Shown here piece after piece: positions 1 through 53,864 of a stretch of DNA of 53,864 nucleotides. Below the pieces are notes generated by a model. It did no database searches. It was given only the letters and a program-made list of their open reading frames with translations, and was not told where the DNA came from. The position numbers were made by a program, and so were the translations under genes. How positions within the stretch are numbered: the first letter of the stretch is position 1; each line of letters opens with the position of its first letter. The stretch is from a virus. The stretch lies in IMG/VR virus record IMGVR_UViG_3300034068_000313, positions 1 to 53,864 of that record. One strand, written 5' to 3'.

Positions 1-2701
1 CCAAACGAAGAACCATGAGTGCCACTGATTGCATCGCGTCTTTGTTAGAACCACCGTACTGAGCCGTCTTTAGCAACAGTGTCGTGATCTCTTTCGCTTG
101 ATTACGATAAGCAGAACTGAGATCAAGCGCCGAACCCTTAGAGTCGCCAAGGGTGTCTGCGAGTTTGATGTTCTTATCGATTGCGTCCTGCGTACTGACG
201 ACCAATTCGTTAGCAAGCATCTCGTCGAGCAAACCAATTTTCGCTAAGAACGCGTCTTGAGCGACAGTACCTTTGTCACTCTCCTTCGCTAACTCGGCAT
301 AGATGTCCGCTAGTTCAGCGACCTTGTTACCAGCAACAGTTACCGCTTGAGGGAACACTCCAGCGAGTCCACCTAAGAACGCGTCCTGTGCGGCTGTAAC
401 GCTGACGGCTTTGTTCTGTAATTCTTGAAGTGTGAACGTGTAGATGTCTGTTCGCCCCGCGGCGGCTGCCATAGCAGCACCCGACCCGAGGATTGCGTTA
501 TACATTTCGGTGCCAAGTATTGAAGAGAAGTACAAAGCAGTGTCGGCACTTTGTAGGAGTTTCTTGTTCTCACTATCAAGAGCCTCTCTGTTGTCATCGA
601 AAGCATTAGACAGGTCATCAAGGTTGTACAACAGGTCTTTGACTTGATTGCCTGTCATCTCACCTGCCTTGACCGCTTCAAGCATTGCACCAGCGAAAGG
701 TGTACCAGCGTCTGCTGCCGCCTGTAGAGCACTAGAGACACTAATGGCGGCGTCGCCTGTTTGTACAAGTTGGTCGTACGACAGACCAAGTAGCACGTCG
801 CCAAGGTCACCGAACGCGTCGGTGCCTGTAGATACCACACCGCCGACCTGTTCCATTGTCAAATTGAGATTCGATATCTCGTCGTTGATACCGAGGGTGA
901 CTGACTCAGCGGTAGCGAAAGCAGTGGCAACGTTTGCGGCCGCTTGAGCAGTCGCGGGCAATGCACCTTGCAACTTGATGTACTCATCGACAAGACCCTT
1001 GACCTCATCGTGAAGTACGGCTGTCGGTTCTCCTGCTGCTTTGAACGCATCGGTCAAACGCTCTTGACGTTCTTTCGCTTCCTTCGCGTTCTGACTGAAC
1101 GTGTACCACACGGCGGCAATAGCGATCACCGCTACAGCAACACCAGCAATGATTGGACCAGCGGCGGCGAACTGTGCAATCGCGCTAGTGAACGCCTGCG
1201 TCGCCATAGCCGCTTTCAACGCGGCCCACGCCTTCGCAAGGGAGCCAAGCATGATCAACAACGGACCACCGACAGCAACAAGACCAGCCAGCACAACGAT
1301 GATCGTCTTCAAGAAGTTCGGTAGAGCATTGATAGCCGTCATGACCTTCTCAAACGCTGTGGCAAGCATCTTCAACGCAGGCACAACAATAGGTACAAGA
1401 ACTTGACCAAGGCTTATGAAAGCGTCTTTCATTTCTGCCATGACTTGCTTCATCTTGAAAGCACCCGTCTTGGACATGGCTTCGAACGCTTTGTCGGCGT
1501 CGCCCGAATTGTCTGTGAGGTTTGCGAATATCTTTGCTGTACTGTCCGTTGCGGCACCGAACAAACTCATGACACCTGTCAAGGCTCGAATGTTGCCGAA
1601 CACAATGCCTTGCGCTTCTTCGTTGTCACCGAACGCTGCCGTGAGTGTTTGTAAAGCAGAGAGCAAACCCTTCTGCTTGATCTGCTCACGTAACCCAGCA
1701 CCACTTAGACCAAGAGCATTGAGTTGTTCCTCTGCTTGTTTAGCAGGGTTCAACAACGACGCGAGTATGCCTCGTATCTGTGTAGCCGCCTCACTCGCGT
1801 CTGTACCGTTACGACTCATAGCGGCGAACGCGGCACCGACCTCTTCGAACGTAACGCCCATAGCAGAAGCGATAGGTAGCACACGAGGCAAAGCACCAGC
1901 AAGTGAGTCTGCTTCCATCTTGCCTTCACGTACAGCCGCAACCATTAGGTCGGTTGCTTGTGCAGCAGATAAGTTCTCTGCGCCGTAAGCGTTCAACGCT
2001 GACGAGATTGTGTCAGCGACGATCGCTGTTTGCCCCATGCCAATCGCAGAGGCTTTCAACGATGACTCAAGAACCTGCATGGCTGTAGCGCCGTCAATAC
2101 CTGCCGAGGCAACGAAGTACAAAGCGTCAGCGGCGTCTACAGCACTGCCACCAAACTCCTTAGCCATTTCACGGGCGGCTAAACCCATCTCGGCAACTTT
2201 GTTTTCGGACAAACCAACCATCGCAACGATTGACTGCATAGAGAACTCGAAGTCGTTAGCCGTTTTGATTGCTTGACCACCAGCGAGCAACATCGGCGCA
2301 GTCAACGCCATCGACATCTTTGTACCGACAGAGGTCATCTTGCTACCCATGTCAGTGAACTTGTTACCTACACGAGATGCACCCTCGGCGGCTTGTGTGA
2401 TCCTCTTAGAATCGTTCGCAACCTTGCGGGCCATCTCGTGATACGCAAGGGCGAAGTCGTCAACACCGTACGCGGCCTTCTGATAAGCGTTTTCAACTTT
2501 GGTGAGGGATTGTTTGGTCTCTTGGGCAACCTTTGTGACTGCTCGTTCGGCTTTCGCCATGCCAGCAGTTGCGTCTTGACCTAACTCATCAAACTTCTGT
2601 CCGAGTTGGTCAATTGTTTTGACAGCCTGAGCGACACCCTGTTTGAGTTTCGAGGCATCAGCACTGAGTTCTACATTGAGACTTCCGACTGATTGTGCCA
2701 C
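1..2701 (-). CDS. Tape measure protein, N-terminal part (continues across the contig ends)
   Basis: This is the first 900 codons of a 1466-residue tape measure protein, which sets tail length and is threaded through the tail tube. The frame begins at GTG 2701 after a GGAAGAG ribosome site and an in-frame TAG at 2707-2705. It stays open to base 1 and continues in the same frame at base 53850. Residues about 90-400 look like the PhageMin_Tail family (glycine/alanine-rich helical text with FTDMGSKM and MTAPMLLAGG). Hydrophobic stretches near residues 460-560 (for example LPNFLKTIIVVLAGLVAVGG) are the membrane-like segments typical of tape measures. It lies 3 bases after the frameshifted chaperone gene, the usual order in siphoviruses. 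The identification is strong; only the exact start (GTG) is uncertain. Confidence 0.9.
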   Translation of the reverse strand, partial: MAQSVGSLNVELSADASKLKQGVAQAVKTIDQLGQKFDELGQDATAGMAKAERAVTKVAQETKQSLTKVENAYQKAAYGVDDFALAYHEMARKVANDSKRITQAAEGASRVGNKFTDMGSKMTSVGTKMSMALTAPMLLAGGQAIKTANDFEFSMQSIVAMVGLSENKVAEMGLAAREMAKEFGGSAVDAADALYFVASAGIDGATAMQVLESSLKASAIGMGQTAIVADTISSALNAYGAENLSAAQATDLMVAAVREGKMEADSLAGALPRVLPIASAMGVTFEEVGAAFAAMSRNGTDASEAATQIRGILASLLNPAKQAEEQLNALGLSGAGLREQIKQKGLLSALQTLTAAFGDNEEAQGIVFGNIRALTGVMSLFGAATDSTAKIFANLTDNSGDADKAFEAMSKTGAFKMKQVMAEMKDAFISLGQVLVPIVVPALKMLATAFEKVMTAINALPNFLKTIIVVLAGLVAVGGPLLIMLGSLAKAWAALKAAMATQAFTSAIAQFAAAGPIIAGVAVAVIAIAAVWYTFSQNAKEAKERQERLTDAFKAAGEPTAVLHDEVKGLVDEYIKLQGALPATAQAAANVATAFATAESVTLGINDEISNLNLTMEQVGGVVSTGTDAFGDLGDVLLGLSYDQLVQTGDAAISVSSALQAAADAGTPFAGAMLEAVKAGEMTGNQVKDLLYNLDDLSNAFDDNREALDSENKKLLQSADTALYFSSILGTEMYNAILGSGAAMAAAAGRTDIYTFTLQELQNKAVSVTAAQDAFLGGLAGVFPQAVTVAGNKVAELADIYAELAKESDKGTVAQDAFLAKIGLLDEMLANELVVSTQDAIDKNIKLADTLGDSKGSALDLSSAYRNQAKEITTLLLKTAQYGGSNKDAMQSVALMVLRL

Positions 2702-10131: not shown

Positions 10132-11082
10132 TCAGGCCGAAACAGGGTTGCTGAAGAAGTAGCCGAGTGAAGTTGAAACGGCCTTGAAGTCCCAAGCCGA
10201 TTCGATTTCAAGACGGTCAGCACGGAGATGGTCCATACGGAAGCGGCTCACAGCAGTTGAAGTACCGAGGCCACCGCCAACACCACTCCACACGAAGTTG
10301 TATCCAGCAGAAGCGGTCATCAAACCAGCCGACGGTGCGACGTAGCACAACAGTGCGTCCTTGTCACCCATCTGTGCGTACGATGCCGAAGCACCTTCTT
10401 GCGCCGAGTTGTACACGCCCTTCATGACCATCACGCGAGGCACATCGAGCACCTTGCCGATGAGTTCAGGAGTGATGCTGTCTGCTGAGGTGTACTTGTA
10501 ACGGTCGACGAAGTCGCTGTGGTTACGGAGAGTCTTGTAGGCAGCGTATGAAAGCACCAACGTGTTAGGCAGGTAGCCAGTGTTGCTCAAGACGGTGTTG
10601 ACACCAGTCTGAATGTCACCGATTGGGTCGGAGCCTGAAGCGTCCCACAACGTCGACGGAGTGTTGTCAGTTCCCCAAACAGAGGTGGTGAAGAACTTGC
10701 TAGCCCAATCGCGTTCCTGACGGATCATCATTTGATGAGCCAAGAACTTGGTGGCGTCCATGTCGGGGTTCAACGGTGAATCGCTGTTCGCACGAACTTG
10801 GTCGCCGATGTCCTTGTGCAATGCCCACACCTGTGAGGAGTAGGTCGAAGTCGACAAGGAGTAACCGCTACCTGCGGACTCGGTTCCGTCTGCACGGTAC
10901 TGAGCCTGATCACGGTAGAAGTCAGCCTGCGAGTACGTGAAGTACAAGTCGCTCTGCTTCGTAACGGGAACAGTGGGGAACACCTTTGACGCAACGAAGT
11001 TGTCTGCCTCGTTCATGAAAGCGACGCTCAAGTTGGTGAGCACCGCATCAATATGGACTTGGTTCTGAGTGGGCTGTGCCAT
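10132..11082 (-). CDS. Major capsid protein
   Basis: This 316-residue protein is the main shell subunit. It opens MAQPTQNQVHIDAVLTNLSV and has FVASKVFPTVPVTKQSDLYFTY, then YSSQVWALHKDIGDQVR and LSYAAYKTLRNHSDFVDRY. This fits the family of HK97-fold capsid proteins that open with 'A...n...F...F..vPV.k.s..y..y'. There is no long N-terminal delta domain, which fits the separate scaffold gene upstream. It lies between the cement protein and connectors. Confidence is high from order, length and pattern. Confidence 0.85.
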   Translation of the reverse strand: MAQPTQNQVHIDAVLTNLSVAFMNEADNFVASKVFPTVPVTKQSDLYFTYSQADFYRDQAQYRADGTESAGSGYSLSTSTYSSQVWALHKDIGDQVRANSDSPLNPDMDATKFLAHQMMIRQERDWASKFFTTSVWGTDNTPSTLWDASGSDPIGDIQTGVNTVLSNTGYLPNTLVLSYAAYKTLRNHSDFVDRYKYTSADSITPELIGKVLDVPRVMVMKGVYNSAQEGASASYAQMGDKDALLCYVAPSAGLMTASAGYNFVWSGVGGGLGTSTAVSRFRMDHLRADRLEIESAWDFKAVSTSLGYFFSNPVSA

Positions 11083-27669: not shown

Positions 27670-27972
27670 ATGCCGAACGATGACCTCAGTGTCTTTGACT
27701 GCGAGCCTGCTGGGGAGTGGGTTCGTGAGGGTGCTTGTCGTGGTGTTGATACACGGTTGTTCTTCCCTAATGCGGGAACGCGTCCTCTTGAGGCGTTGGC
27801 TATTTGTGCGTCGTGTTCAGTAAGGGTTGAGTGTGCTGAGTATGCGATGGATACTCATCAGCATTGGGGTGTTTGGGGTGGCCTTACTGAGCGTCAAAGG
27901 TTTACTGTGAAACGGTTTCGTCGTTCGGGTGTTGTTCACCCGCTTGACCCTCAGGCGACGGGTGACTTGTAG
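27670..27972 (+). CDS. WhiB-family transcription regulator
   Basis: This 100-residue protein has the full WhiB pattern: Cys23, then C46xxC49 and C55 for a 4Fe-4S cluster, and the GVWGG turn (67-71). Cys11 is extra. WhiB proteins bind the principal sigma factor and occur in actinobacteria and their phages. It is a single plus-strand gene, divergent from terS and overlapping the end of the convergent 74-residue gene. A TATGCT box ends 8 bases before its ATG, so leaderless transcription is possible. Confidence 0.92.
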   Translation: MPNDDLSVFDCEPAGEWVREGACRGVDTRLFFPNAGTRPLEALAICASCSVRVECAEYAMDTHQHWGVWGGLTERQRFTVKRFRRSGVVHPLDPQATGDL

Positions 27973-28204: not shown

Positions 28205-28588
28205 TCACGATCGAGTGATTGCTATTGGATTCAAGACGATTGCTTTGAACTTGTCGACGTATGCGCCGCGTAGGAATGTTAGGTCTATCCATTGTTTGGC
28301 TTCTATTAGGTCCTCGAAGTAAACGTTGACGGTCTCGAAGTGTGGTTGTACACGGTAGAGCAGACCGTAGGGCTTGTTGTTGAACACGTCTTTTCTTTCG
28401 TAGATACGCACGCCGCGGAACTCTTCCACTGTGGGTCGGTCGATCTCTCTATCTTCTACTTCGAACTCGTAGTCCCTGATACGTATTTGACCTGCCTTGA
28501 TCATTTCAATGGCTTGCTCTTCGGCGTCGTCTTCATCTACTGCTTCGATGTTCACGCTTGCAAAGATGGCTACTCGGTAGTGTTTCAT
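28205..28588 (-). CDS. Hypothetical protein
   Basis: A 127-residue protein starting MKHYRVAIFASVNIEAVDED, then acidic helices (DAEEQAIEMIKAGQIRIRDYEFEVED). The opening 'V.i.a.v.veA.dedeAeeqA.e.i..g' matches a small repeated phage fold also hinted at in the 170-residue protein near 6.5 kb. The CA-rich leader and AGGAGA precede it. It overlaps the methyltransferase stop by four bases. Confidence 0.6.
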   Translation of the reverse strand: MKHYRVAIFASVNIEAVDEDDAEEQAIEMIKAGQIRIRDYEFEVEDREIDRPTVEEFRGVRIYERKDVFNNKPYGLLYRVQPHFETVNVYFEDLIEAKQWIDLTFLRGAYVDKFKAIVLNPIAITRS

Positions 28589-29430
28589 TTCTTCTCTCCT
28601 GTTGTGGTTTGTTTGTAGATTCGGTTGGACGCGATGAGTGCGTACTCGGGATTGATTTCTGTACCGACGAAGTATCGTCCGTGCCTCACTGCTACTACTC
28701 CCACGGTGCCTGAACCTGTGAACGGGTCAAGGATTAGGTCATCGGGGTTGGTTGATGAGATGACACAAGGTTCGACGAGTGCTTCGGGCATGACGGCGAA
28801 GTGTGCTCCCCTGTAAGGCTTGGTCGGGATTGTCCATACGGATCTCCTGTTACGCAGTGACACCTCGTCAACGGCTTGCTCACGTATGTCCTTAGCGTTC
28901 ATCAAGTACGACGGTGACTTACTGAGCAAGAAGAGGTACTCGTGTGCCTTGACGCAACGGTCAGCGATGGGTTCGGGCATAGCGTTCGGCTTCGACCATA
29001 TGATGTCCTGACGTAGATACCAGCCGTCGGCCTGTAGTGCGAACGCGACCTTCCACGGTATGCCGATGAGGTCTTTACGTTTCAAGCCTTCGGGAATGGT
29101 TCGTCGTCGTGTGTCGTCGTTGATGCCTTGCTTCTGTTTGACCTTGCCGTATGTTCCGTTGGTGTTGCCAACTTTGTTCGACGCATAGTTGTCGCCAAGG
29201 TTTAGCCACAGCGTGCCGTCGTCTTTGAGGACACGCCACACCTCTTTGAACACTGCGACGAGTTGTTCAACGTACTCATCGGGTGATGCTTCAAGACCGA
29301 TCTGTAGGTCGTTGCCGTAGTTCCTCAGTCCCCAATACGGCGGCGAGGTAATACAGCACTGAACACTCTTGTCGGCTATCTCCTGTAGGCGTACGCGTGC
29401 GTCACCGACCTTGATGTCCGCAAAGGTCAT
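28585..29430 (-). CDS. DNA methyltransferase (N4-cytosine/N6-adenine type)
   Basis: A 281-residue methyltransferase with catalytic TSPPYWGLR (28-36), then a target-recognition stretch, and the AdoMet-binding LDPFTGSGTVGVVAV near the C-terminus (motif I after motif IV, the beta-type order). It would methylate specific DNA sites, adding to the deazaguanine modification predicted from the que/dpdA genes. It overlaps both neighbours by four bases. No cognate restriction enzyme is nearby. Confidence 0.88.
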   Translation of the reverse strand: MTFADIKVGDARVRLQEIADKSVQCCITSPPYWGLRNYGNDLQIGLEASPDEYVEQLVAVFKEVWRVLKDDGTLWLNLGDNYASNKVGNTNGTYGKVKQKQGINDDTRRRTIPEGLKRKDLIGIPWKVAFALQADGWYLRQDIIWSKPNAMPEPIADRCVKAHEYLFLLSKSPSYLMNAKDIREQAVDEVSLRNRRSVWTIPTKPYRGAHFAVMPEALVEPCVISSTNPDDLILDPFTGSGTVGVVAVRHGRYFVGTEINPEYALIASNRIYKQTTTGEKK

Positions 29431-33331: not shown

Positions 33332-34237
33332 TCAGGGCGTGACAGGGGTTTGATGCAGGGACAGCAACTCGGCTCGGGCTTCGGGGTTGGTCCTGAACAC
33401 TCCACGCATGGCACTCGTGACTGTGTCGCCACTCTTCTTGATGCCACGCATACTCATGCACGTGTGCTGTGCCGACACGACAATGCCGACGCCCTTTGGT
33501 TGCAAGTGTTCCTCGATTGCGTCAGCGAGTTGGCCTGTCAATCGTTCTTGGACTTGCAACCTGTTTGCGTAGCAGTCAAGCAGTCGTGCCAACTTCGACA
33601 AGCCGACAACACGTGACGTCGGTATGTAAGCGATCGTCGCATGACCGATGAACGGCAGAATGTGGTGCTCGCACAGTGACGTGAATGGCAACTGCCGTAC
33701 GACGACCATCTCGTCGTAAGCAACATCGAACGTCTTGCTCAAGATCACTGCGGGGTTGTCGTTGTAACCCTTAGTGAGTTCACGCCAAGCCTTGGTCACG
33801 CGCCGTGGTGTTTCGAGTAAGCCGTCACGTGTGGGGTCTTCGCCGACGTGTTGAAGCAAACGGATAACGGCGTCAACAGGGTCGCCGTCCTCTTTCTCCC
33901 AAGGGAACGCGAGCCAACGGTCAGTGGTGGTTGCGTTGGGTGAATACATTGCGGGCGACCAAGGTTTACGGAACAACGTCTCCACGTGGATGCCACCGTC
34001 GGGGCGAACCAGTTTCATTGTTCGTCCTGTGTCAATGAGGTCGTCAACGATCAACGTGTGCGGGTCGTCAGGTGTTTCACACAGTGGGAGACCAAGTTTG
34101 TTCGCGACGAGTGTTGCGACTACAGCACCGCCCGTAGGGATACCGTAGACGCCTGTTGGGTTGTTACGTACGCGGGCGCATAGTTTGTCGACCTCTTGGT
34201 GAATGTCGTTCCAAGTGAGAGTCAGGATTGTTGTCAT
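33332..34237 (-). CDS. folE: Phosphoribosyltransferase-GTP cyclohydrolase I fusion
   Basis: A 301-residue fusion. Residues 1-115 are a type I phosphoribosyltransferase with GIPTGGAVVA and the PRPP motif LIVDDLIDTGRT (62-73) and end with WLAFPWE, as in xanthine-guanine enzymes. Residues 120-295 are FolE: CEHH (189-192), SRVVGLSKLARL, RLQVQERLTGQLADAI and HTCMSMRG, including the zinc ligands. FolE turns GTP into dihydroneopterin triphosphate, the first step to preQ0. It follows queE and starts ATG 34237, 8 bases after AGAGGAG. The PRT part may return free guanine to GMP; that is inference. Confidence 0.9.
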   Translation of the reverse strand: MTTILTLTWNDIHQEVDKLCARVRNNPTGVYGIPTGGAVVATLVANKLGLPLCETPDDPHTLIVDDLIDTGRTMKLVRPDGGIHVETLFRKPWSPAMYSPNATTTDRWLAFPWEKEDGDPVDAVIRLLQHVGEDPTRDGLLETPRRVTKAWRELTKGYNDNPAVILSKTFDVAYDEMVVVRQLPFTSLCEHHILPFIGHATIAYIPTSRVVGLSKLARLLDCYANRLQVQERLTGQLADAIEEHLQPKGVGIVVSAQHTCMSMRGIKKSGDTVTSAMRGVFRTNPEARAELLSLHQTPVTP

Positions 34238-34238
34238 G

Positions 34239-34982
34239 TCATACTCCTCTTTGATCACCGAAGGCTAAGACGTGAAGGCGTGTGGTGACGTTGGTGCCTT
34301 CCGCTGTTGCGATGTCAAACAGATCGGGCAGACGCCGATTGATTTCGTCTGCGCTTCGACCCTCAGGCATCAAGTAAATATCTTTCATGGACAGGCCGTG
34401 GAGACGAACCATCTCTTTGATCTCTAACAGGTCACGTACAGGGTCGCAGATGACAAACTTGAACGAGTGTTGCGGACACTCGATGAAACGTTCAAGAGCG
34501 TTCGGTACGTAACGCTTCGCAACGTGGACCCCCGACGACGCAAGTTTCGGTGACACGTTCCACTGCACGAGTTCAAAGATTGCTAACGGCGGTTCAATCG
34601 TTCCGTTCGTTTCGATCTCAACGCGGTAGTCGGGGTTCACGTCGAGCAACAGGTGTACCAGTTTGACCAGTCCAGCCTTCTGTACCAACGGCTCGCCACC
34701 AGTAATGACGAGTCGGTTCGTACCGCTCGCGGCAAACCAATCAACAATCTCTTCAAGTGTTACGCGTGACAGTTGTTCGGCCTTGTCGTACTTGACTCCG
34801 TTCTTGCCTGTCCAATCCCATGTGAAGGGTGTGTCACACCACGTGCAGTCAAGGTTGCAAAGACCCAAGCGTAAGAACATGGCTGGCTTACCGAGTGATG
34901 GTCCTTCGCCTTGCAACGTAGGACCGAACTTCTCTGCAACACTTAGTGAGCGCCCGTTCTGTATCACGTAGTAGTCGGTCAT
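34239..34982 (-). CDS. queE: 7-carboxy-7-deazaguanine synthase (QueE)
   Basis: A 247-residue radical SAM enzyme that contracts the ring of 6-carboxytetrahydropterin to 7-carboxy-7-deazaguanine. It has the cluster-binding C42-x3-C46-x2-C49 (LCNLDCTWCD), the substrate-pocket FGPTLQGEGPS, the ITGGEP motif, and ETNGT. The ATG overlaps the queD stop by one base. Length and motifs match QueE. Confidence 0.92.
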   Translation of the reverse strand: MTDYYVIQNGRSLSVAEKFGPTLQGEGPSLGKPAMFLRLGLCNLDCTWCDTPFTWDWTGKNGVKYDKAEQLSRVTLEEIVDWFAASGTNRLVITGGEPLVQKAGLVKLVHLLLDVNPDYRVEIETNGTIEPPLAIFELVQWNVSPKLASSGVHVAKRYVPNALERFIECPQHSFKFVICDPVRDLLEIKEMVRLHGLSMKDIYLMPEGRSADEINRRLPDLFDIATAEGTNVTTRLHVLAFGDQRGV

Positions 34983-35425
34983 CAACTCGCCTGCCACGAC
35001 GCTGCATTCTTTTCGTTCTCCCAACAGGTCACACGAATGACCTTTGCGTTGGGGAATCTCATGGCGGTCAATGTAACTGCTTGGTCACGTACCCAATTGA
35101 CCATGCCTTCCATTGTTGGGTCCATGATGCGAAGGTCTAAAGCGTCGGCCGCACCTAGGTATTGGATCTGTTCGAGGCACGGGTCGTCCTCGCTCACTAG
35201 CACAGTGTGATCGAATTGGTATTCAAGAGCGTCCCGTAGAACTTTGAGGTCGGCGAAGTCAACTACCCAACCACGCTCGTCGCGTGTGCCTTCCCACTCA
35301 ACCTCGACCCAACGGTCGTAGCCGTGAAGGTAATGGCAGTGACCACGATCTCGCCATTGGCGGTGACAGCAGGGGAAGCCGCCGAAACGTTTGATCACTC
35401 TTAGGATTTCATCTTGGGTCGTCAT
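34982..35425 (-). CDS. queD: 6-carboxytetrahydropterin synthase (QueD)
   Basis: A 147-residue enzyme converting dihydroneopterin triphosphate to 6-carboxytetrahydropterin. It has FPCCHRQW (His21), then HCHYLHGYDRW with C30 and H34, VVDFADLK, the catalytic EYQFDHTVL, and DPTMEGM and CWENEKNA at the end. The usual HGH is HGY, so the third zinc ligand is changed or shifted to His31. It overlaps queC and queE, so the three are co-translated. Confidence 0.85.
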   Translation of the reverse strand: MTTQDEILRVIKRFGGFPCCHRQWRDRGHCHYLHGYDRWVEVEWEGTRDERGWVVDFADLKVLRDALEYQFDHTVLVSEDDPCLEQIQYLGAADALDLRIMDPTMEGMVNWVRDQAVTLTAMRFPNAKVIRVTCWENEKNAASWQAS

Positions 35426-36098
35426 AGTGTGGCCTCGCTAGGTAGTCGGTTGGATCTTCGATCCCTGCTAATTCAAATGCTTCACGGCGCTCAAAGCAAG
35501 TACCACATGACCCGCAATGAATTTCACCACCCTTGTAGCACGACCATGTATCAAGCCAAGGTACGTTGAGGTCGTTGCCGATGGTACAGATTCCGTCTTT
35601 GGGGATTTGTACGTACGGTGCAAACACTTTGAAGTCTTCGTCAATGAATCCTTCGTTGGCTACGAGTAGCAGGTTCTGTAGAGCGTCGATGAACTGTGGT
35701 CGGCAGTCGGGGTAGATGTAATGATCGCCTGAGTGGACAGCGGTAGCGAGTACGTTTGCGCCCACTGTGACGGCGTAGCCCGCAGCGATGTTGAGCATGA
35801 TGCTGTTGCGGTTTGGTACGACCGTCTTTCTCATGTTCTCTTCGGCGTAGTGACCGTCAGGTACGGGTGCATCGCTGGTCAGTGTGGACTTACTGATGAG
35901 TCCTGTGAGGTGTGTGATGTCAACGATCGTGTGGTTGAGACGGAGTTTGCCTGAAGTGACCTTGGCGTAGTCAAGTTCTTTCTTGTGTCGTTGTCCGTAG
36001 TTGAACGACATGAGATGAACGTCGTAACCCTTAGCCACAAGATCGTAGGTGAGAACTGTTGAGTCCATTCCACCGCTGACGATTGCTAACGCTTTCAT
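35409..36098 (-). CDS. queC: 7-cyano-7-deazaguanine (preQ0) synthase (QueC)
   Basis: A 229-residue ATP-dependent enzyme that turns 7-carboxy-7-deazaguanine into preQ0. It has the PP-loop SGGMDST (8-14), FNYGQRHKKEL, VPNRNSIMLNIAAGYA, and the zinc cluster C-x7-C-x2-C-x2-C (CYKGGEIHCGSCGTC). It overlaps dpdA by four bases. There is no fused amidotransferase domain, so the product is preQ0 rather than an amidated base. Confidence 0.93.
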   Translation of the reverse strand: MKALAIVSGGMDSTVLTYDLVAKGYDVHLMSFNYGQRHKKELDYAKVTSGKLRLNHTIVDITHLTGLISKSTLTSDAPVPDGHYAEENMRKTVVPNRNSIMLNIAAGYAVTVGANVLATAVHSGDHYIYPDCRPQFIDALQNLLLVANEGFIDEDFKVFAPYVQIPKDGICTIGNDLNVPWLDTWSCYKGGEIHCGSCGTCFERREAFELAGIEDPTDYLARPHYDDPR

Positions 36099-37246
36099 TC
36101 TGTTTCTCCTTTGGCTGCTGTGATTAGGTTTTCTATTGACCCCTCGGCGAGGTGTAGGTGTAAACCTTTGTCGCCTTGTGACTTTGTTTCAGTACCCGTC
36201 GCACGGTAGTGATGCAACTTGTTTGCCCTAGTGGGCAGTGGTACCGCGCCGTGTTTCTTTCTTAGGAACTGTTCGTACGCACGCCAAGAGTTAGCCGCTA
36301 CGGGAATGATCTTTGTTCTGTGGTAGCGCGAGCGGTCGGCTATGTCTTCAGGGTCGCCGCCGTACTTACGAATGAACGGTGCCAACTTGTAGATCGACTG
36401 TGCGTCGCCTACGCCACACGTTTCGAACTTACGACCTGTCCACACTGCGAGTCGACCGAAGCGGTGACCCATTCCCCACGACGATGAGTCAACACTGAAC
36501 CAAGGTAACGCTTGAATGATGTCGTTGCGTGTTTGCCCGAAGCCGTGAAACACTGTGTCCTTACCCTCAACTCGTTTGAAGCAGGTTGCTGTCCACTTCA
36601 ACGCTGTAGGTCCGGGTACACCTACCATTCCACCGAGCGCGATGTAGCCGTAGTCCTTTGCCATGTCGTCAAGCACTTTGAGGTCGGTGCCAGTGTGTAC
36701 GACTGGCATTGGGTTCAAGCCTTGGTTCTCTAAGTACCGTTGATTGACCGCTGTTGCTTTCGCATCTCTAATGACGTCAAGGTTTACGTATGTCGTGAAC
36801 AGTGATTCCCATTGCTTCAACCAAGCCGCGTAGTCCGCAACCTTTACGTCGGCACCCTGTGAGTAAGCACTGAACGCACCCGAGTCGGCGAACACCATTG
36901 GGCGTGTTGGGAACTTTGCTAACACTGCCGCGATGTCGACCTTCTTGTAGTAGTGATATGAGATCAACATCTTGAAGGGTTGTGCTTGTGTTGCTTGTGC
37001 GGTGGGGAGTTGTTTCTCTTCTCCGCTTAGGGCTAAGTGAAGGTTGAGTCCTTCGGTGTGTTCTTTCATGTCTGCCTCTGCGATTGGGGGAACACTGTTG
37101 AGAGCACTGAGTACGAGGTACACGTGCGGACCTGTGTTGGTGATTGCATTGGCTTCATCGGTCTTTGTGACAAGGTATACGTGAGGTCCGTTACTCGTTG
37201 ATGAGTGGGTCGGCGTAGTCGAGGAGTGTGTTGATTCGTTCGTCAT
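36095..37246 (-). CDS. dpdA: DNA 7-deazaguanine transglycosylase (DpdA)
   Basis: A 383-residue member of the TGT/DpdA family, which swaps guanine in DNA for a 7-deazaguanine base. Family text includes LISYHYYKK, the catalytic-type FADSGAFSAYSQG (Asp121), YVNLDVIRDA, PVVHTGTD and YIALGGMVG. It is unusual in carrying short related strands at both ends: PHVYLV at 21-26 and 40-45, LNLHLAL at 67-73, and LHLHLAEGS at 362-370. It overlaps the ParB-like gene upstream by 56 bases and queC downstream by four. No tRNA-specific end domain is visible, and all partners for preQ0 are beside it. Confidence 0.85.
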   Translation of the reverse strand: MTNESTHSSTTPTHSSTSNGPHVYLVTKTDEANAITNTGPHVYLVLSALNSVPPIAEADMKEHTEGLNLHLALSGEEKQLPTAQATQAQPFKMLISYHYYKKVDIAAVLAKFPTRPMVFADSGAFSAYSQGADVKVADYAAWLKQWESLFTTYVNLDVIRDAKATAVNQRYLENQGLNPMPVVHTGTDLKVLDDMAKDYGYIALGGMVGVPGPTALKWTATCFKRVEGKDTVFHGFGQTRNDIIQALPWFSVDSSSWGMGHRFGRLAVWTGRKFETCGVGDAQSIYKLAPFIRKYGGDPEDIADRSRYHRTKIIPVAANSWRAYEQFLRKKHGAVPLPTRANKLHHYRATGTETKSQGDKGLHLHLAEGSIENLITAAKGETE

Positions 37247-37793
37247 CGTCCTTGCCTTCTACTGTTGCGAACACTCGTTGCCAGCGTGCGTTGGTTTCGG
37301 GTTCGACCTTGATTGAGATGGTGGGGTTGAACACTGAGTCGTCGTCATGAGCACCAATGTTCTTGATGAGGTCATCAAGGTTCGGTGGAGTCAAGAGTCG
37401 TTCTAAGTCTTCAAGGTCGATGTCGTTGTATCCCGAACCCTCTAGCCCGCCTTCGGCTTGTGTTAGGCGTAGTAGGTCGATCAACAGGTCGTCATCGTAA
37501 GACGCGACGTCGTTTGAACGGTTGTCCACGAGCAGTAGTTTGCGAGCCTGTTGGTCATCTACATCAACCCAAAGCACGGGTATCTGTTCGATGCCTACAT
37601 TGACCGCAGCCTGATAGCGGTGGTTACCGACGACGATGTGGCGTGTTGCCTTCTGTACTACAAGCGCACCATAGAAGCCGTTGGTACGGATTGAATCCTC
37701 AAGTCGGTCTAGGTTGCCGCGGCGTGCGTTCTCAGGGTGGAGTTCGAGTGTGCTTACATCGACCAGTTCGTAATCACTTGGTAGCAGATTCAT
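37191..37793 (-). CDS. ParB-like domain protein, possible DpdB-type partner
   Basis: A 200-residue protein from ATG 37793 (MNLLPSDYELVDVSTLELHP), 6 bases after AAAGGA. ParB/Spo0J N-terminal text includes LHPENARRGNLDRLEDSIRT, VVGNHRYQAAVNVG and VDVDDQQARKLLLVDNR. There is no partner ParA, so partition is unlikely. Its end overlaps the start of dpdA by 56 bases. In Salmonella, DpdB (ParB-like) is needed with DpdA to place preQ0 in DNA; this could be a phage counterpart. That role is inference. Confidence 0.75.
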   Translation of the reverse strand: MNLLPSDYELVDVSTLELHPENARRGNLDRLEDSIRTNGFYGALVVQKATRHIVVGNHRYQAAVNVGIEQIPVLWVDVDDQQARKLLLVDNRSNDVASYDDDLLIDLLRLTQAEGGLEGSGYNDIDLEDLERLLTPPNLDDLIKNIGAHDDDSVFNPTISIKVEPETNARWQRVFATVEGKDDDERINTLLDYADPLINE

Positions 37794-38022
37794 CGTTGTC
37801 CTTTCGGTGGATCTCATTCCACACTGTTTGATTCGTCAGGCCGAGGGCATTGGCGATTTGGCGTTGGGGAAGTTTGTCGTCCTTCCATGCTGACCGTATC
37901 AGGTTCCTGCGCTCATTGTTGCGATTCATGATCTCTTGTTCGAGCCGACGCATCTCTTCAGTGAGGTGTCGAGCCTTCTCAAGTTTCTCATTCATGGATT
38001 CAGTTGTGATTGTGTCTGTCAT
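37774..38022 (-). CDS. Small helix-turn-helix protein
   Basis: An 82-residue protein. A coiled coil (MNEKLEKARHLTEEMRRLEQEIMNRNN, residues 10-37) leads to a helix-turn-helix in LPQRQIANALGLTNQTVWNEIHR (residues 51-73). It overlaps the ParB-like gene by 20 bases. It probably binds DNA as a dimer and may set expression of the modification cassette; inference. Confidence 0.65.
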   Translation of the reverse strand: MTDTITTESMNEKLEKARHLTEEMRRLEQEIMNRNNERRNLIRSAWKDDKLPQRQIANALGLTNQTVWNEIHRKDNDESATK

Positions 38023-52153: not shown

Positions 52154-53864
52154 ATCGTTGTCGTTCTTCCCGACTTCTGAATCTTCAACAAGCCGACACG
52201 TACTGCTTCAACAAGGTTGCGCTCAGAAGTGACAGAGCCGTTCACGTTCACAGTGACGTACGTGTCACCACCACCGCCGTAGTTGTTCATCTGCGACAAA
52301 GGAATGATCGCTTCAGGCCCGCTCTCACCGATTACACCGATACTCGGCTTCATAGCGATACCACCTTGACTGTGGAATCCACTGAAGTCAATACCCGGCG
52401 GCAAGTAGATACCGCCAACGATTGCGCCACCGTTCGCAAGCGCACCGTCAGCAAGGTTCGTCTGCTGACCCGCTGTGAAGTTCGAGTACGCCGATGCCGC
52501 AACAGGTGTCGTGAGTTTGTCGATGCCACCTTGAAAGCCTGCAAGGAACGTGAACATCGTGTCGTGAAGATCAACCTGAATTGCTGTGACGAGAGCCGCC
52601 ATCTGCGTGCTCACACTCTCAAGACTTGACTCAAGCCCGTTGACAAGTGTTTGCTGTTGTTCGAACTGTGCTTGTGCTTGTGCAACAGCGTCAGTGAACA
52701 GTTGACGCACGAGAGCGTTCTGAGTTGCTAGTGCGCTCTCTGCGCCAGCAATGTCAGCACCGAACACAACTTCGCCTACAAGAGCACCCGACTCTGTAGC
52801 GATCGCTGATATCTGTGATCGAACATTCAACAGTTCAGCGATGTCTCCTGCTGACATACTGAGAAGACTCTTGGCGATCTTGTTGCCTTCAAGAACGCCT
52901 GCTTGTGCGACCTGTGCGATGATGTCTGAACCGAATCCTGCATCACGCAACGATGTCAAGTTGTCACGGAACGTCGTCGCTTCAGCGAGCATCTTGCGTG
53001 CGTTGCCGAGCGGGTTCTTTGCTGTGATCGGTTGCACCACAGAATCCGAAACACTCTTTGCAAGATCACTTTGCTGTTGCTTGAGTGATTCACTCTTGGC
53101 GAACAGTTCGTCGTACTGCTTCTGTGCCGCTAACGCTTGATCGAGCAACGTATTCGACGGCGCTGTACTGCCTGTGATCGTTGCGTCGAACTTGCCTGCG
53201 GCAACTTGCACCTCTTCAAGTGTTGACTTGAATTCCTCTAGTGCTTTTGTTGCGTCTGCGAGTTGTGTTGTGAGTACGTCACGTACGTCAGCCATGTTGC
53301 TGAGTCGAGCGAACTGTGCCTTGATCTTGTCGATGAAGCCCGCGAACTGTGGCAACTTGTCTAGCCCGAGACGGACTGCTTCGTCGAGTGTTGCTTGTAA
53401 TGCTTTGCCAATTTCTTTTGACGAGCCATAAAGAAGCGCGTCGCGGAAGTCTGTTGACATCAGTTCATTCGCATAGCCCGCAAGGTCATTGACCATATTC
53501 TCAACGAAAGCCGCCAAGTCATTAGGTGCTTGAGTCTTTGTACTACCGCCACCGCCACCGCCACCACGACCAGTTGGACTGCCACCCGTAGTACCAATCG
53601 CAGACCTGATTGCCTTCAAGTCCGAGAGAGTCTTACTCAATCTCATCGTCGTGTCGCCAGTAGCAGCACCAGCAGCCCACAACATATTCCCTATAGCCGC
53701 CTGAACGTTGGCGATCTGTTTGTCAAGGTCGGCAGTATTGATAGCGAAGTTCACACCGAACTCTGCTTCAAGTCCATCGAGTATCCCCATCGAGTCAATG
53801 AGTCCACGTACCTCTTCATCGGTGTAGCCAGCAGCACGAGCAGCGTCACCCAAACGAAGAACCA
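52150..53864 (-). CDS. Tape measure protein, C-terminal part (begins across the contig ends)
   Basis: The final ~567 residues of the same tape measure that begins at 2701; the frame runs on unbroken through the 15-base overlap of the two ends. It includes a glycine-rich linker (PTGRGGGGGGGSTK), long coiled-coil stretches (AKSESLKQQQSDLAKSV, QAQAQFEQQQTLVNGLESSLESV) and a C-terminal part with MKPSIGVIGESGPEAIIPL, the typical tape measure ending. Its stop overlaps the tail hub start (ATGA). The internal TTG 53853 is not the real start. Confidence 0.92.
   Translation of the reverse strand, partial: VLRLGDAARAAGYTDEEVRGLIDSMGILDGLEAEFGVNFAINTADLDKQIANVQAAIGNMLWAAGAATGDTTMRLSKTLSDLKAIRSAIGTTGGSPTGRGGGGGGGSTKTQAPNDLAAFVENMVNDLAGYANELMSTDFRDALLYGSSKEIGKALQATLDEAVRLGLDKLPQFAGFIDKIKAQFARLSNMADVRDVLTTQLADATKALEEFKSTLEEVQVAAGKFDATITGSTAPSNTLLDQALAAQKQYDELFAKSESLKQQQSDLAKSVSDSVVQPITAKNPLGNARKMLAEATTFRDNLTSLRDAGFGSDIIAQVAQAGVLEGNKIAKSLLSMSAGDIAELLNVRSQISAIATESGALVGEVVFGADIAGAESALATQNALVRQLFTDAVAQAQAQFEQQQTLVNGLESSLESVSTQMAALVTAIQVDLHDTMFTFLAGFQGGIDKLTTPVAASAYSNFTAGQQTNLADGALANGGAIVGGIYLPPGIDFSGFHSQGGIAMKPSIGVIGESGPEAIIPLSQMNNYGGGGDTYVTVNVNGSVTSERNLVEAVRVGLLKIQKSGRTTTI

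Follow-up and report, generated by a model that had tools for sequence, protein, structure and literature searches.

A phage preQ0-to-DNA cassette whose FolE is fused to a phosphoribosyltransferase-like domain

A six-gene cassette for DNA modification in a viral genome

The virus record IMGVR_UViG_3300034068_000313 of IMG/VR, analysed here over its whole length of 53,864 bases and called the window below, carries six genes on its minus strand, within 33332-37817, which judged by sequence make up a complete phage cassette for the synthesis of 7-cyano-7-deazaguanine (preQ0) and its insertion into DNA (Table 1). In the direction of transcription, a small helix-turn-helix (HTH) protein is followed by a ParB-like protein, DpdA, QueC, QueD, QueE and FolE, with neighbouring genes overlapping or abutting. 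The synthesis enzymes were each identified by Pfam, PHROGs and NCBIfam between them, while the identification of DpdA is based on PHROGs and its fold; the family-match scores of the six genes exclude chance. An initial annotation of this DNA had described six genes encoding all steps from GTP to preQ0 and its transfer to DNA. This reading of the pathway holds and the motifs are intact, but only five enzymes had been named, the sixth gene being the ParB-like one. Moreover, the gene annotated as FolE does encode a GTP cyclohydrolase I (PF01227), but as one half of a two-domain protein whose fused phosphoribosyltransferase (PRTase) had been overlooked.

The two ends of the record have 15 bases in common (window 1-15 and 53850-53864), and a 1467-aa tape-measure reading frame runs uninterrupted across the joined ends. 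In all likelihood the window is the whole of a circular genome of some 53,849 bp, and since the genome closes as a circle, the absence of genes from it can be trusted.

Table 1. Genes of the cassette and related features in the window
Feature	Position	Strand	Matches
PRTase-FolE fusion, 301 aa	33332..34237	-	PF00156 2.7e-8 and PF01227 3.8e-70, one frame
QueE, 7-carboxy-7-deazaguanine synthase, radical SAM	34239..34982	-	phrog_2076 2.6e-51, TIGR03365 2.8e-28
QueD, 6-carboxytetrahydropterin synthase, HC..LHGY zinc-ligand variant	34982..35425	-	PF01242 7.4e-23, phrog_2389 3.7e-33
QueC, 7-cyano-7-deazaguanine (preQ0) synthase, without GATase domain	35409..36098	-	PF06508 1.8e-60, TIGR00364 187.9 bits (cut-off 150.3)
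DpdA, DNA-guanine transglycosylase	36095..37246	-	phrog_7068 6e-47, phrog_887 2e-45
ParB-like protein, overlaps dpdA, candidate DpdB-role partner	37191..37793	-	PF02195 7e-9, phrog_723 1e-35
Small HTH protein, head of cassette	37774..38022	-	weak HTH matches
N6/N4 DNA methyltransferase (type II/orphan), outside cassette	28585..29430	-	PF01555 2.7e-48, PADLOC MTase_II 4.5e-107

A phosphoribosyltransferase domain fused to FolE

Residues 1-115 of the fusion (about 33893-34237) form a domain resembling xanthine-guanine phosphoribosyltransferase (XGPRT), and residues ~123-301 form the GTP cyclohydrolase I; a strong Shine-Dalgarno sequence, AAAGAGGAG, lies upstream of the start ATG at 34237. In sequence the N-terminal domain is closest to purine PRTases, namely PDB 1vdm, Sulfolobus GpT-2 and E. 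coli XGPRT, and it is matched by the NCBIfam xanthine PRTase family at 2.8e-11. The AlphaFold model of the fusion has a mean pLDDT (predicted local distance difference test) of 94; its FolE part aligns to GTP cyclohydrolase I with Z 25, and its N-terminal part to purine PRTases and XGPRT with Z 14-15 (1vdm: Z 14.8, 2.2 A, 113 residues). The domain keeps the phosphoribosyl pyrophosphate (PRPP) motif DDxxDTGxT and the purine motif of the XGPRT group, K...WxxPW(D/E), here as a K and WxxPWE. It thus has fold, PRPP motif, K and WxxPWE in common with XGPRT and HGXPRT (E. coli Gpt, Pyrococcus 1vdm, Sulfolobus GpT-2), but differs from them in being fused to FolE and in that the flexible active-site loop is largely deleted: the spacing from the pyrophosphate loop to the PRPP motif is mostly 20-38 residues in the fusions, compared with 48 in E. 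coli Gpt. Because this loop is not of full length, we speak of an XGPRT-like domain and not of a canonical XGPRT. The ratio of replacement to synonymous substitution rates (dN/dS) between the window and a relative, L034, is 0.067 for the PRTase and 0.050 for the FolE part, so that selection on both is equally strict. No description of a PRTase-FolE fusion was found in the literature, which is a weak negative given the partial coverage of the literature; the fusion is apparently an undescribed, widespread variant.

Distribution and modularity of the fusion

The IMG/VR scan yielded at least 353 related stretches, and the counts given here come from the best 80, i.e., those most like the window (one of them incomplete), uncorrected for shared ancestry. 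The PRPP motif residues D65, D66, D69, G71 and T73 are invariant in every fetched row covering the motif, W108 and E114 are kept in 79 of the 80 rows and K91 in 72. Among the 34 loci in which the fusion is flanked by 5 kb or more on either side (full-flank loci), DpdA, QueD and QueE were each found in 33, QueC and ParB each in 19. Rhodococcus phage Finch and many of the IMG/VR loci have the same order, ParB-DpdA-QueC-QueD-QueE-FolE. In 37 phage records, 80% or more of the length of the fusion is present; among the rows read, those with an annotation call it FolE or GTP cyclohydrolase, and in the annotation of PaMx25 it is split in two. A search of 84,980 prokaryote genomes with one strict pattern revealed three fused copies only, located on metagenome or single-cell contigs. 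On the FolE tree, five changes of PRTase state are needed, at least three of which are forced, and L006 has undergone an apparently clean loss of the PRTase domain relative to L004. Read from these sequences, the fusion is modular, the PRTase domain having been lost or gained several times.

Campylobacter, Cellulophaga and Flavobacterium phages encode standalone relatives of the PRTase domain, and QueD is encoded in all five genomes tested. A search with two PHROG models of DpdA gave no match in the genomes of the Campylobacter and Cellulophaga phages; however, both models also miss the annotated DpdA of the Flavobacterium phage, so a divergent DpdA may be present in the other two groups.

The cassettes that carry the fusion without QueC have features of their own. 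A small (~100-115 aa) QueD paralog, phrog_17812 (L111:4964-5311, L102:8786-9094 and 10 more loci), is encoded in 12 of the 15 QueC-less full-flank loci and in none of the 19 QueC-bearing ones (Fisher 8e-7); by hhalign it is related to QueD with E 1.9e-7. Its presence points to an end product derived from 7-carboxy-7-deazaguanine (CDG) in these cassettes. It may be the published DpdL. A glycosyltransferase of the GT-B type, usually near the phrog_17812 gene, is also found in seven of these 15 QueC-less loci, accompanied in two by a GT-A-type enzyme (coordinates L111:5308-6462, L102:9088-10155 and 10155-10907), which hints at a glycosylated 7-deazaguanine in the DNA of such phages.

DpdA, its ParB-like neighbour and the synthesis enzymes

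A PDB sequence search with DpdA gave nothing meaningful, and a comparison of folds was therefore needed. The TGT-like (tRNA-guanine transglycosylase-like) core comprises residues 88-334, and the best structural matches of the predicted model, confident from ~88 to 340, are tRNA-guanine transglycosylases (Z 15.9, 235 residues). D121, D157, H234 and D253 are invariant in an alignment of 37 sequences; from the motif and prior knowledge, D253 is the probable nucleophile and D121 the probable acid/base. A conserved histidine (H196 in phage 9g) is missing from DpdA2 (PMC6884629), and H234 may be its counterpart in the window protein. The extra-long N-terminus might reflect a wrongly placed start; it is kept in the closest relatives, where synonymous changes outnumber replacement ones (12 to 8), yet residues 1-85 are predicted to be disordered, and the annotated start is a candidate one.

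The ParB-like protein matches the ParB superfamily (PF02195), and in nearly all relatives with both genes, Finch included, its gene overlaps dpdA or lies immediately next to it. Bacterial DpdB is described as a ParB-like ATPase supporting insertion (PMC12839542), and in phage CRB2 such a gene has been proposed to encode a DpdB homolog (PMC6392294). By analogy, the ParB-like protein probably assists DpdA as DpdB does in bacteria. PADLOC gave no DpdB match for it, the best match being a ParB-bearing methyltransferase, although the presence of a DpdB model in the library is unconfirmed. The cassette resembles the bacterial Dpd system in pairing a TGT-like DNA transglycosylase with a ParB-superfamily protein (PMC12839542), but differs from it in that the window has no PADLOC DpdB match and no recognised DpdC or other restriction genes.

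All four preQ0 synthesis enzymes are present with their catalytic motifs: the CEHH and HxC motifs of the FolE domain, the CX3CX2C motif of QueE, and SGGMDS and the four-Cys zinc motif of QueC are intact. In the window QueD, one classical zinc histidine is gone (HGH to HGY), and a histidine adjoins the catalytic cysteine instead. The HGY change defines a phage clade formed by the window QueD and 13 other distinct phage QueD proteins; a histidine directly before the catalytic cysteine was found in 20 of 20 HGY rows as opposed to 0 of 77 HGH rows, with a single origin on the tree. Judging from this alignment, the additional histidine is a probable relocated zinc ligand.

Predicted modification of the phage DNA

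The cassette is of a known kind. Rosebush and CAjan, which have the minimal FolE-QueD-QueE-QueC-DpdA set, carry 2'-deoxy-7-cyano-7-deazaguanosine (dPreQ0) in their DNA (PMC6884629). The steps can be proposed from the families: the FolE domain would convert GTP to dihydroneopterin triphosphate, from which QueD would produce 6-carboxytetrahydropterin (CPH4), QueE CDG and QueC preQ0; DpdA would then put preQ0 in the place of guanine in the DNA, through a covalent mechanism like that of TGT, and the resulting dPreQ0 would block some restriction enzymes. The initial annotation had stated that QueF and a QueC fused to a glutamine amidotransferase (GATase) domain, Gat-QueC, are missing, which was borne out: QueC has no GATase domain, and a search of the whole genome for QueF, ArcS-type DUF5591, DpdC-type PF03883 and phrog_17812 found none of them. 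The window's QueF match (PF14489) coincides with the FolE domain, is below the cut-off and reflects the shared T-fold; it was rejected as a nitrile reductase. Since QueC is without a GATase domain and no QueF, ArcS-type, DpdC-type or phrog_17812 gene is present, dPreQ0 is the best predicted product, and we regard its insertion into the phage DNA by this cassette as likely. The earlier expectation of dPreQ0, and not preQ1 or an amidated base, thus agrees with the gene set, but it is a prediction, and Rosebush DNA also holds a small amount of 2'-deoxy-7-amido-7-deazaguanosine (dADG) beside dPreQ0 (PMC6884629). The minor dADG in Rosebush, together with the many small window genes without known function, would be consistent with a DNA product that is mainly dADG, 2'-deoxyarchaeosine (dG+) or some other derivative, formed by an enzyme of the host or through a phage gene that escaped recognition; this seems improbable to us, because the genes for such derivatives listed above are absent and QueC has no GATase domain. 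Rosebush and CAjan, with the same gene set, are resistant to some restriction enzymes, not all (PMC6884629).

FolE, QueD, QueE and QueC are common to queuosine synthesis, and FolE also to folate synthesis, so the genes might serve host-tRNA queuosine or folate instead of DNA modification. We consider this extremely unlikely: without QueF no preQ1 would be made, the transglycosylase falls into DpdA families of phages, retains the conserved H234 and has no PDB TGT match by sequence, and CAjan cannot modify its DNA without such a dpdA (PMC6884629).

Possible function of the PRTase domain

Every swap catalysed by DpdA would free one guanine. The XGPRT-like domain might recapture it with PRPP to form GMP, which host kinases would convert to GTP for FolE, this being the least certain step. 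A bifunctional PRTase-FolE would in this way close a guanine cycle, in which the guanine released by DpdA returns through GMP and GTP to the next modified base. We put this proposal forward tentatively, as the likeliest of the roles considered though short of an even chance. The PRTase domain tracks FolE and DpdA and ignores QueC, which favours a job at the guanine/GTP end of the pathway.

Several observations weigh against guanine recycling. With the flexible active-site loop of XGPRT shortened in the fusions, PRTase catalysis may be weak or lost. The PRTase family also occurs without detectable DpdA in Campylobacter and Cellulophaga phages, where recycling would make no sense, and some related cassettes lack the domain yet function or have been retained (L006, L007, Finch, Typha, GottfriedDienst). 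Moreover, the co-occurrence with DpdA is partly due to phage FolE living mostly in DpdA cassettes.

These same observations bear on two other roles, each of which we hold to be rather unlikely. One is that the PRTase converts a 7-deazaguanine base, CDG or preQ0, to its ribonucleotide, as does TubE, the CDG-specific PRPP transferase of tubercidin biosynthesis (PMC6112128); the phage would then supplement or replace base exchange by a route through nucleotides, or use the nucleotide otherwise. TubE indeed acts on CDG with PRPP (PMC6112128), and the DNA of Campylobacter phages is highly modified with dADG, for which a route through a modified dGTP has been proposed (PMC6884629). Standalone PRTases occur in these phages and in the Cellulophaga phages, both with QueD and with no DpdA detected by the two PHROG models, and these cases are better explained by a TubE-like enzyme that acts on CDG or some other deazaguanine base than by recycling. 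In the fusion, however, the partner is FolE and not QueE or QueC, the domain follows DpdA (33 of 34 loci) while ignoring QueC (19 of 34), and DpdA has no use for a nucleotide. The indifference to QueC disfavours a preQ0-specific PRTase, whereas a CDG-specific enzyme is unaffected by it.

The other role is that of a sensor without turnover, a purine- or PRPP-binding regulator tuning FolE to the nucleotide supply during infection. The shortening of the catalytic loop in all fused proteins would suit such a domain, as would its repeated gain and loss, including the apparently clean loss in L006, which is the behaviour of an accessory module. Against this, all PRPP- and purine-contact motifs are kept among proteins that are only ~40-50% identical overall, and selection on the PRTase is as strict as on FolE.

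Comparison with known systems and significance

Compared with Rosebush and CAjan (Hutinet et al. 2019, PMC6884629), the window has the same minimal gene set and the same predicted dPreQ0, but its FolE has the extra N-terminal PRTase domain. TubE shares with the window domain a purine-type PRTase within a FolE/QueD/QueE pathway, but it is a standalone enzyme that makes an antibiotic nucleotide, and the two are likened by description (PMC6112128). The gene order of Finch (NC_054724) is identical to that of the window, whereas its FolE has 187 aa, no PRTase was found in its genome and its DpdA is only ~35% identical. The same two-domain protein, annotated only as FolE, stands beside DpdA and Que genes in Quinobequin-P09, PaMx25, VpKK5, MMDA13 and Bhz54 (Queuovirinae and other phages). 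The QueC of Quinobequin-P09 and PaMx25 has the size of Gat-QueC, so that dG+ is predicted for them, unlike for the window. The cassettes of this group of phages also differ from the window in gene order and have no annotated ParB partner beside DpdA. The FolE of Seuratvirus GottfriedDienst, which we take to be of the same genus as CAjan, is without the PRTase domain, unlike that of the window.

The base-swapping cassette itself is textbook knowledge for phages; the fused PRTase is not. Labelled only FolE in GenBank, the fusion is found in phage sequences from the environment by the hundred, but hardly at all in the collection of 84,980 prokaryote genomes searched with the one strict pattern. 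Its presence suggests that phage 7-deazaguanine metabolism includes a step not yet described, whether the recycling of a base, the direct formation of a nucleotide or feedback control. Guanine recycling, if true, would deal metabolically with a by-product that no DpdA-type exchange can avoid.

Neighbouring genes, host and further features of DpdA

A DNA methyltransferase, as had been claimed, is encoded outside the cassette and is of the N6/N4 type; no partner nuclease for it was recognised. A gene for a WhiB-family transcription factor lies at 27670-27972 (PF02467, 3e-20); WhiB genes are a marker of an actinobacterial host. The terminase matches are mostly to Gordonia and Microbacterium phages, the single best being to Brevundimonas phages, and together with the WhiB gene they suggest an actinobacterial host. 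A megablast of window positions 28001-52000 against phage records gave no match. The small HTH protein is 78% identical in L002, L003 and L005; it is restricted to the closest relatives and is not found in L004, L006 or L007.

DpdA proteins of the actinophage type (window residues 20-75 and 360-383; L013, L014, L015) carry repeated G-x-H-x-YLA/V motifs at one or both ends, and the C-terminal copy is predicted with confidence to form a strand and a helix. The DpdA proteins of Queuovirinae and of some IMG/VR phages (L009, L018, L019, L030, L031, L024, L028, L089, L100) end in a clamp-box-like tail (QELF, QMELF, QPGLF, QALF), and in several of the phages with such tails an annotated sliding-clamp or processivity-factor gene adjoins dpdA. 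Such a tail may tether base exchange to replication.

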